A DNA stretch of 40,456 nucleotides from Pseudomonadota bacterium (GTDB lineage: Bacteria > Pseudomonadota > Alphaproteobacteria > SMXQ01): contig JADFJG010000018.1 in the NCBI GenBank assembly GCA_022566265.1, forward strand, positions 1 to 40,456, given 5' to 3'. A model generated the notes under the pieces. The model was given only the letters and a program-made list of their open reading frames with translations. It was not told where the DNA came from and did not search any database. Below are positions 16,829 through 21,265 of the stretch, piece after piece. The stretch's first letter is position 1. Each line of letters opens with the position of its first letter. A program made the position numbers and the translations under genes.

Positions 16829-16832
<4 letters not shown>
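15831..16832 (-). CDS. NAD-dependent epimerase, UDP-glucose 4-epimerase-like
   Basis: Start [52 protein letters not shown]...[24 protein letters not shown]. Confidence 0.9.
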
Positions 16833-18228
<1,396 letters not shown>

Positions 18229-18229
<1 letters not shown>

Positions 18230-19089
18230 TAGATGCGGTCCACGAGGTTGCGTTCGGCGCGCACGAAGAACGCCAGGCCGACCGCCAGCATGATCACCGA
18301 GATGACAAGCGGCATCACGAACATGACGACGCCGGGCACCGTGCCGCCGGCCCCGGTCAGCGCCCAGCGGAAGCCTTCGATGATGCCGACCATCGGATTG
18401 AGACCGTAGATAAGCTGGAAGCGCTCGGGCACCAGCGAGGCCGGGTAGATCACCGGCGATGAGAACATCCATATCTGGATGATCAACGGCAGCGCCAGCC
18501 CGATATCGCGATAAAGCGCGTTCAGTGCCGCCCCGAACACGCCGACCGCGAACCCGCAGAACGCCGCGTAAACCACGAATAGTGGCAGCGCCAGGATCGA
18601 CATCGTCGGAACGACGCCGAAAAAGGCCATGAGGCCGAACAGCACCACCAGCGCCAGGATGAAATCGGCCAAGGACACGAACAGGGCCGAGGCCGGCAGC
18701 AGGAGACGCGGGAAGTAAAGCTTGGTCACGATCTCGCGGTTGGCCACCAGGGACTGGCCACCGCCCATCGCCGTCTTGGAGAAGAATTGCCAGGGAACGA
18801 AGCCGGCGAGGAAGAACACCGGATAGGGCAGATCATTGGACGGCACACGAATGAGGTAACCGAGGAAGATGCTGAAGATCAGCGTCATCGCCAGCGGCTC
18901 GAACAGGGCCCAGGCGAGGCCGACCACCGTTTGCTTGTAGCGGACCTTCAAGTCGCGCCACACCAGGATGTGGAGGAAGGCGCGGTAGCGCCACAACTCT
19001 CTGGGGTTGAGCGATGTCAGGTTGCGGTCTGGGCTGATCACCCTTATGTGCGGGGTTCCTTGGTCAGCCGAGGTTTCACTGTCCGTCAT
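18229..19089 (-). CDS. ABC-2 type polysaccharide export permease (Wzm-type)
   Basis: 286 aa; WRDLKVRYKQTVVGLAWALFEPLAMTLIFSIFLGYL; multiple TM segments; TAATG overlap with the ATPase gene. Confidence 0.92.
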
Positions 19090-19162: not shown

Positions 19163-19174
19163 CACGCTACCGCA
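19163..19174 (-). promoter_or_regulatory. ops-like element TGCGGTAGCGTG
   Basis: Minus-strand TGCGGTAGCGTG; 11/12 identity to E. coli ops GGCGGTAGCGTG; lies between an RfaH-like gene and the exporter genes. Confidence 0.6.
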
Positions 19175-19256: not shown

Positions 19257-19754
19257 TCAGGCCGGGGCGATGGCCTCGCTCGACAGACGCGTCTTGACCT
19301 GGCGATCCAACAGGTCGAACAACACGAACACCCGCTCGGCATCCGCCATGGAGTGGAACCGGCCGATCAGTTCGGCGAAGGGCCCCTCGATCACCCGCAC
19401 GAGATCGCCGGACTTGTAGTTGCCGGGACGGGTGGTGTCGAACATTCCCGTCCCCTCGCGCTTCCGTATCTCCTCGACGATCCCGTCCGGTACCGGCGCC
19501 GGCGCATCGGCGTGGCGCACCAGGTCCGAGACGCCAATGGTGGAGAGGATCGGCCGCCACCGGGTCGCCAGCAAATCCAGGGCGACGAACAGATAACGCG
19601 GAAACAGTGGCCGGCGCACCAGCTCCCACCGCCGCGCGTGGCGGCGGCGTTTCTGGTAGCGCGGCAGATAGGCGGTGTAGCCTTGGCGTCTCAGGTGATC
19701 GAGCGCCTGGGCTTCCGCCTGGGCCCGGGTGTAGACGACGTACCAGGCGGTCAT
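19257..19754 (-). CDS. transcription antitermination factor, NusG paralog (RfaH-like)
   Basis: 165 aa; MTAWYVVYTRAQAEAQALDHLRRQGYTAYLPRYQ...RPLFPRYLFVALD...GVSDLVRH...YKSGDLVRVIEGPFAELIGRF (KOW); ATGA overlap with upstream gene. Confidence 0.92.
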   Translation of the reverse strand: MTAWYVVYTRAQAEAQALDHLRRQGYTAYLPRYQKRRRHARRWELVRRPLFPRYLFVALDLLATRWRPILSTIGVSDLVRHADAPAPVPDGIVEEIRKREGTGMFDTTRPGNYKSGDLVRVIEGPFAELIGRFHSMADAERVFVLFDLLDRQVKTRLSSEAIAPA

Positions 19755-20431
19755 GCTTGCGCCTCCTCCTCCTCGCGCACCGCGGGTTGCTCGGTGACCC
19801 GTAGCAGGGCGGGCGCCAGCACCCGGTCGCCGCCGATGCCGGCCTTGCCGGCGGCCTCGGCGATGGCCTCGAAGGTGTCCTGGGGGGTCTTGACGTCGGT
19901 GATTACCAATGCGTCGAGGCCACCGGAATCTTGCGTCAGGTCCAAGGCCGCCGCTAAATTCCCAACCACCGGCCGTCCCGCGCACGATGTCGCGCCGCCC
20001 TCGGCGTCGATGACGCAGACGATCTCGACCGGGGTATCGGTGGCGCTCAGCACCATGATCTCGGCCAGCTCGCCGCCGCCGACGAGCGCGATCCGGCGCC
20101 GGCCGTCGCGCGCGCAACCGGCCAGCAGGGCCGCGCATTGGTGCTTGGCGTCGCGGAAGAAATTGAAGGAAACCGACAGATACTCGGCTGTCAGCCGGCT
20201 TTTTTCGGCGAATCCCCGGGGGGTCAGATAGTAGGCGTAGCGGTTGAGCGGCGCCTGGCGGACCTTGATCAACCCCTTGTTCGCACATCGTTTGAGGTAG
20301 GCGTTGGCAAGCCCCAGCGCGATGCCGAGCTCACTCGACAGCGAGCGCTGGGTCAGCTCGCTGTCGCGCTCGACCGCGCTCAGCAGGCCAAGCATGATCG
20401 TCGTTTTCTCGGAGTCAGGCTGCTGCGTCAT
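19751..20431 (-). CDS. MarR/EPS-associated-type winged-helix regulator with C-terminal Rossmann-like domain
   Basis: 226 aa; N-term ELTQRSLSSELGIALGLANAYLKRCANKGLIKVRQAPLNRYAYYLTPRGFAEKSRLTAEYL; C-term RRIALVGGGELAEIMVLSATDTPVEIVCVIDAEG. Confidence 0.85.
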   Translation of the reverse strand: MTQQPDSEKTTIMLGLLSAVERDSELTQRSLSSELGIALGLANAYLKRCANKGLIKVRQAPLNRYAYYLTPRGFAEKSRLTAEYLSVSFNFFRDAKHQCAALLAGCARDGRRRIALVGGGELAEIMVLSATDTPVEIVCVIDAEGGATSCAGRPVVGNLAAALDLTQDSGGLDALVITDVKTPQDTFEAIAEAAGKAGIGGDRVLAPALLRVTEQPAVREEEEAQA

Positions 20432-20501: not shown

Positions 20502-20516
20502 GTTCATCACGTGAAC
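20502..20516 (-). promoter_or_regulatory. operator O1, GTTCATCACGTGAAC palindrome at predicted +1
   Basis: 15-mer GTTCAY-N3-GTGAAC (one arm mismatch); second copy 31 bp away centre to centre. Confidence 0.65.
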
Positions 20517-20522
20517 AACACG

Positions 20523-20552
20523 TTTATACAGCGTTCACGCGGTGAACGTCAA
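20523..20552 (-). promoter_or_regulatory. sigma70-like promoter TTGACG-18-TATAAA
   Basis: Minus strand TTGACGTTCACCGCGTGAACGCTGTATAAA upstream of the regulator/antiterminator genes. Confidence 0.6.
20533..20547 (-). promoter_or_regulatory. operator O2, perfect palindrome GTTCAC-GCG-GTGAAC inside promoter spacer
   Basis: Perfect 6-bp arms, 3-bp spacer, located between -35 and -10. Confidence 0.7.
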
Positions 20553-20560
20553 CAATGATC

Positions 20561-21265
20561 TCATGAACGGCGAGGGCTCGCCAATTCCCGGCCGAGACAG
20601 CGCAAAAAGCGCAGCCCCGTGGGGATCGCCGGGGCGCCGGTATCGCCGGCTATGCGCGGCCCCTCGACGGTCGGGAACTCGACGATGCGCATCCCGTGTT
20701 TCAGGCAACGGATGGTCATCTGGTACTCGATGGTATAATCGACGGCGTCGAGCTTGAGCACCTCGACCGCCTGGCGGGTGATCGCGCGATAGCCATTGAT
20801 GGTGTCGGTGATATAGGGGCCGGAACGGCGAAACCCCAGATTGGCCGCCAGGGTGAAGGCGTTGTTGGCCCATTTGCGGAACTTGAAGAAATTTTCGTCT
20901 TCCTCGTTCACCGCGCCCTTCATCATGCGCGAGGCGATGACCAGGTCGGCGCCGTTCGCCAGCAGAGTACGAAAGCGGGGGAGATCGTCCGGCGTCTCGT
21001 TACCGTCGGGCGAAAAGAACAGGTAGGCGTCCGCCTCGACCTCGCGAAAGGCTATGTGGAATGCCTCGCCGCGGCCCCGGCGCGACTGGCCGAATACCGT
21101 AACCCCGCGTTGCCGTAAATATTCGACCGTGCCGTCGGTGGAACCGCCATCTATGGCGACGATGGCGTCATATCCAGCCTCCGGGCCCGGTTCTCCTATT
21201 CGGGGAAACATGACCTCCAGGCATGGCCGCTCGTTTCGTACCAGGATACAAAGCGCAATTTTCAT
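20561..21265 (-). CDS. family 2 glycosyltransferase
   Basis: 234 aa; YDAIVAIDGGSTDGTVEYL; YLFFSPDGNETPDDLPRF; DTINGYRAITRQAVEVLKLDAVDYTIEYQMTIR. Confidence 0.9.
   Translation of the reverse strand: MKIALCILVRNERPCLEVMFPRIGEPGPEAGYDAIVAIDGGSTDGTVEYLRQRGVTVFGQSRRGRGEAFHIAFREVEADAYLFFSPDGNETPDDLPRFRTLLANGADLVIASRMMKGAVNEEDENFFKFRKWANNAFTLAANLGFRRSGPYITDTINGYRAITRQAVEVLKLDAVDYTIEYQMTIRCLKHGMRIVEFPTVEGPRIAGDTGAPAIPTGLRFLRCLGRELASPRRS

Follow-up and report, generated by a model that had tools for sequence, protein, structure and literature searches.

Attachment, sensitivity to phages and contact with hosts all depend on surface polysaccharides, and it is, to our knowledge, mostly unknown how alphaproteobacteria switch on their polysaccharide clusters. 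One described arrangement resembling the locus analyzed here is that of MarR in Escherichia coli, a small winged-HTH protein that represses its own operon at marO, where the core promoter is overlapped by two palindromes. Closest by protein family is the winged-HTH group covered by the model TIGR04176 (MarR_EPS). At the level of transcript elongation, the nearest system is the RfaH antiterminator of E. coli with its ops element, the reference ops12 being GGCGGTAGCGTG (PMC5995543). The locus presented below, from an alphaproteobacterial window of 40,456 nucleotides (the whole stretch of DNA that was analyzed), is a system whose parts all belong to known types.

All genes of the locus are on the minus strand. 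A family-2 glycosyltransferase gene (20561–21265) lies upstream of the gene for a 226-aa regulator (19751–20431), which is followed by the gene of an RfaH-like NusG paralogue (19257–19754), whose ATG overlaps the regulator TGA by 4 bp (ATGA), and by the permease (KpsM/Wzm type, 18229–19089) and ATPase (Wzt/TagH type, 16829–18229) genes of a polysaccharide ABC exporter. The regulator, a predicted autorepressor, sits amid exporter, glycosyltransferase and sugar-nucleotide genes, i.e., in an exopolysaccharide setting.

The label of a wHTH-Rossmann protein, which the sequence-only reading had given to this regulator, held firmly for the N-terminal part: residues 12–96 make up a MarR_EPS-like winged HTH, which passed PF13412 (HTH_24) with 34.7 bits against a gathering threshold of 21.9. 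The match to TIGR04176 reached 58.2 bits (E 6.7e-16) and did not pass the curated cut-off of 88; judged by this profile, the domain is homologous to that of MarR_EPS but outside the TIGR04176 equivalog. PF12802 (MarR_2) was not passed by the regulator either (19.4 bits, gathering threshold 27), and 18 of 25 relatives matched this model at E ≤ 0.01. Of the invariant residues, the majority (N43, G53, R64, Y67, T70 and P71) are located in the winged HTH and its wing. The Rossmann-like nature of the C-terminal domain is plausible, although weakly supported: an alpha/beta pattern was seen at residues 113–196 with a low-confidence structure model made from two sequences (mean pLDDT 51), the search of PDB folds with this model returned generic alpha/beta folds only and no match below E 0.001, and the profile matches of the C-terminal half to Rossmann proteins were weak (E 0.1–1).

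The intergenic stretch between the end of the glycosyltransferase gene (20561) and the start of the regulator gene (20431) includes a minus-strand promoter with the -35 hexamer TTGACG (20552–20547) and the -10 hexamer TATAAA (20528–20523) separated by an 18-bp spacer, together with two perfect GTTCA-N5-TGAAC palindromes regarded as candidate operators. The first, O1 (GTTCACCGCGTGAAC, 20533–20547), is within the spacer, its first G being at the same time the last base of the -35 hexamer, while the second, O2 (GTTCACGTGATGAAC, 20502–20516), is at the predicted transcription start, some 7 nt past the -10 and near 20516. Both have perfect 5+5 arms and their centers are 31 bp apart; the palindromes and the promoter had been read directly from the sequence before, and their coordinates were reproduced exactly. 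The generic sigma70 scan of the window did not list the TTGACG-N18-TATAAA promoter because it demanded a T at position 6 of the -10, which is absent from TATAAA, and it is the comparative data instead of the scan which support the promoter assignment.

Across all 173 contigs of the genome (3.55 Mb), the exact GTTCA-N5-TGAAC pattern was present in two copies, both at the regulator promoter, and the reversed control pattern had no copies in the same 3.55 Mb. With up to two mismatches allowed, 7 palindrome matches were found in the window against 3.7 expected, which is unremarkable; therefore, the weight is carried by the exact copies, and comparison with the relatives was required.

The regulator was found in 30 of the 144 genomes searched among relatives (own genome included), and upstream of those genes the palindrome usually occurred twice and usually directly behind TTGAC. 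For the footprinting, 85 two-domain proteins had a long enough upstream region, and the exact palindrome was sought within 350 bp. It was present in 63 of the 85, with at least two copies in 38, and in 45 of the 48 relatives with at least 45% identity, these counts being inflated through common ancestry, while dinucleotide-shuffled upstream DNA gave a mean of 0.03 loci, at most one, and never two sites. The figure of 63/85 is slightly conservative because the set takes in four ATP-sulfurylase fusions, none with an N5 site; about a quarter of the two-domain relatives, mostly the most distant ones, had no exact site. TTGAC abutted the palindrome in 43 loci, and the best -10 was at 18 bp in 32 of them, the same as in the window, with T, A and T at its positions 1, 2 and 6 in 36, 38 and 32 of the 43, respectively. 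The 10 arm bases and TTGAC were kept across the promoters, and the 5-bp center and the flanks were variable. Close relatives from the same genus or family lacking the regulator gene had only 0–2 palindromes each. Hence, as in autoregulated operons, a candidate operator in the regulator's own promoter was conserved together with the regulator gene. The sequence-only reading had suggested autoregulation by the downstream wHTH protein and had named missing conservation upstream of orthologous operons as a refutation; the footprinting came out in favor of its proposal, with the palindrome-in-promoter arrangement kept before dozens of orthologues and hardly seen elsewhere except before surface-sugar operons.

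Two details of that proposal did not survive the comparison. The degenerate third site GTTCATGAGATCATT (20554–20568, minus strand), suggested as one more half-site 21 bp upstream, consists of a half-site GTTCAT (20568–20563) with a poor partner half; the site as such scored 8/10 with relaxed matching and shares bases with the glycosyltransferase stop codon. In the relatives, true upstream sites (at least 9/10) occurred in 9 of the 43 composite promoters at 24–28 bp and never at 21 bp, and on account of this distance and of the stop-codon overlap its role as an operator was rejected as doubtful. The second detail was the spacing by integral helical turns. Among the palindrome pairs at up to 40 bp, the center spacing was 22–24 bp in 27 of 45, with minor groups at 27–28 and 30–35 bp, and strict helical phasing was rejected because of this scatter. 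In 35 of the 43 composite promoters, a site of at least 9/10 followed O1 within approximately 35 bp, mostly at 22–24 bp and not at 31 bp, so that the O1–O2 spacing of the window is unusual among its relatives. Many of the latter had a single site only, and the cooperative binding suggested in the sequence-only reading found no support. Since the center spacing varies, the phasing is loose, and the geometry of the promoter, with one site on each side of the -10, explains the spacing no worse than helical phasing would.

A genome-wide motif search for the regulon had also been recommended, and, in addition to the two exact sites of the own genome, it was extended to the class. The composite pattern TTGACRTTCAN5TGAAY, derived from some of the same genomes, was sought in 386 genomes, where it had 55 sites and its reversed form had 2. 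Of the 55, 42 stood immediately before the regulator gene, the window's site included, and the composite site was present in 41 of the 77 regulator-bearing genomes as against 5 of the 309 others (Fisher p ~3e-28, kinship ignored). Six more sites (L107, L109, L114, L119, L129 and L135) preceded nonulosonate or other surface-sugar operons: four of these operons had PseB, PseC or NeuC genes above the NCBIfam cut-offs, the fifth had a NeuB-like gene below the cut-off, and the sixth an ABC transporter and a cytidylyltransferase-like gene without a strong family match. These six operons are the predicted second targets of the regulator group.

From the remaining sites, the four within coding sequence (L122, L130, L143 and L152) were discounted as chance, and L112, which is at the end of a contig, was left out of the classification. 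Two others (L134 and L146) read TTGAC-ATTCATC(A/T)GATGAAT, with a second similar copy, before a GntR-type regulator gene or the neighboring kinase and sugar ABC transporter genes; they look like an unrelated operator and were not counted in the regulon. In records that had no part in deriving the pattern, both Chelatococcus plasmids (L253 and L254) had tandem N5 sites, with TTGAC at one of them, and four roseobacter plasmids had one GTTCA-N4-TGAAC each before a MarR_EPS gene.

The second gene of the cassette gave its best match among six NusG-family models to RfaH (TIGR01955), with 127.4 bits against a cut-off of 144.5, which was not passed; as far as the profiles go, it is an RfaH-like paralogue. 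A NusG-like gene came next after the regulator gene in 69 of the 97 loci with enough sequence. In the window, the 167 bp that separate the antiterminator gene from the exporter permease gene include the ops core GCGGTAGCGTG (19163–19173, minus strand), which matches that of E. coli over 11 bases and is located about 85 nt past the RfaH-like stop codon. Within 400 nt after the NusG-like gene, ops was found on the coding strand in 17 of the 69 loci exactly and in 23 with one mismatch (0 and 1, respectively, on the other strand), canonical ops being absent after the NusG gene in most relatives. The own genome (3.55 Mb) had two copies of the ops core GCGGTAGCNTG against 37 of the reversed pattern, the second copy being inside an unrelated coding region, so the genome may avoid the core except where it is functional. 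The core was also present in the leaders of three of the predicted target operons (L107, L114 and L135), 71–116 nt after the -35. As in RfaH/ops systems, the coding strand thus has an ops element ahead of the target genes, and the earlier idea that the promoter controls entry into a regulator-antiterminator-exporter unit gained in strength from the position of this element just before the exporter genes. In the two Chelatococcus plasmids mentioned above, gmd and GDP-fucose synthase genes came immediately after the two-domain regulator, with no NusG gene, indicating that the antiterminator is not an obligate partner. Since the regulator promoter lies inside a larger cluster of genes on the same strand, it may top up the expression of the cluster instead of being its sole source.

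Taken together, the palindromes are very probably operators of the 226-aa regulator encoded some 70 bp downstream, by which the regulator-antiterminator cassette would be autorepressed, with ops-dependent read-through as the subsequent step. A dimer of the regulator would bind GTTCA-N5-TGAAC via the winged HTH and, occupying O1 and O2, would block the RNA polymerase, because these are located in the -35/-10 spacer and at the start site, respectively; that the regulation is negative is deduced from this promoter geometry only. A ligand of the C-terminal domain, perhaps (as pure conjecture) a nucleotide sugar or another precursor, would release the regulator, after which the free promoter would produce a translationally coupled regulator-antiterminator mRNA, and the RfaH-like protein, once recruited at ops, would let the RNA polymerase proceed into the genes for the exporter and the polysaccharide.

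A regulator bound to the same sites might activate the promoter instead, perhaps through a remodelling of the spacer like that by MerR-type activators, which bind the -35/-10 spacer of promoters with 19–20 bp between the hexamers. O1 does occupy this location, and the 18-bp spacer is one above the 17-bp optimum, but it stays short of the MerR-type length and, combined with good hexamers, needs no remodelling; besides, O2 is over the start site in most relatives (35/43), which is a repressor position, and the single site in the loci L181–L190 is mostly just before or over the start codon, all of which makes activation unlikely. The probability is lower still that the palindromes bind an unrelated LexA-, ArsR- or GntR-like regulator of the cluster. 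Such binding could be read from the look-alike ATTCATC(A/T)GATGAAT at the two GntR-type or neighboring genes (L134 and L146), yet the sites track the regulator gene across genomes and follow the wHTH into proteins with different C-terminal parts, while the presence of merely two copies in the own genome speaks against a global regulator. As for LexA, its alphaproteobacterial site is the direct repeat GTTC-N7-GTTC and not a palindrome.

Practically negligible is the chance that the palindromes arose at random in an ordinary promoter or act as a DNA or RNA hairpin instead of a protein site. Short palindromes do arise by chance, and there was no enrichment in the window at two mismatches, but the conservation and the genome-wide counts contradict a random origin; regarding a hairpin, O1 is upstream of the start and thus not transcribed, and Rfam had no credible match at the sites, the single sub-threshold hit being to a microRNA on the opposite strand. 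Autorepression by the 226-aa regulator is therefore preferred over all of these.

The same operator type extended beyond the two-domain proteins. In the phylum survey, a single GTTCA-N5-TGAAC was present in 13 of the 15 single-domain MarR_EPS-type loci whose upstream sequence was available (L179–L192 and L200), mostly overlapping the start codon or directly ahead of it. In a third group, the wHTH is fused to ATP sulfurylase and APS kinase and the site is GTTCA-N4-TGAAC; the fusions L039, L194, L195, L196 and L199 (family f23 genomes) had an N-terminal wHTH of the MarR_EPS lineage and, in some cases, two N4 sites. Such a fusion is possibly an enzyme repressing its own gene. A few distant two-domain proteins (L029, L034 and L229) had ATTCA-N5-TGAAT instead and a common "APYKR" wing motif, which suggests that protein and operator change together, with "APYKR" as a possible specificity determinant in these three cases only. 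The MarR_EPS leaders of roseobacter plasmids and a relative (L255, L256, L257, L258 and L038) had a conserved ops-like element TGCGGTAGCC(G/A)TGG near the start codon, one base longer than the canonical ops, which in one member reads GCGGCAGCC. On a wider scale, it is about as likely as not that there is one wHTH lineage with one operator code GTTCA-N4/5-TGAAC and varied C-terminal sensors (none, Rossmann-like or ATP sulfurylase-APS kinase), whose Rossmann version, translationally coupled to an RfaH-like antiterminator, would form a two-stage gate (the repressor at initiation and ops at elongation) on surface-sugar/nonulosonate operons across the Proteobacteria.

A readable DNA code for this regulator group would make its target operons predictable in any genome, including those of nonulosonate (pseudaminic/sialic-type) biosynthesis; it would tie a predicted repressor to an RfaH/ops elongation switch and make the question of the ligand testable with a simple reporter. 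The group is widespread and apparently unstudied: in the literature searched (subscription literature and operator databases were outside the search), no description was found of the operator, of the function of TIGR04176 or of the coupled repressor-antiterminator cassette, and TIGR04176 was not named there, although its product name does occur.

Compared to the known systems, the locus has in common with E. coli MarR/marO a small winged-HTH protein and two palindromes over its own core promoter, while the window protein fails the Pfam MarR models, its second domain is putatively Rossmann-like, and the target genes make polysaccharide and not efflux pumps. With the RfaH/ops system of E. coli (PMC5995543) it shares the best family of the second gene and the ops core just before the exporter genes; in contrast to that system, the antiterminator gene is here tied to that of a predicted autorepressor through the 4-bp overlap, and ops is downstream of the antiterminator's own gene and not in the leader of a distant target operon. 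The closest likeness in the regulator itself is to TIGR04176 MarR_EPS, with a homologous winged HTH, a surface-polysaccharide setting and GTTCA-N5-TGAAC upstream (N4 in roseobacters). However, the window protein lacks a short wing insertion and stays below the 88-bit cut-off, has about 120 further aa at the C-terminus as a putative Rossmann-like domain, and its type of promoter usually has two candidate operators, not one.
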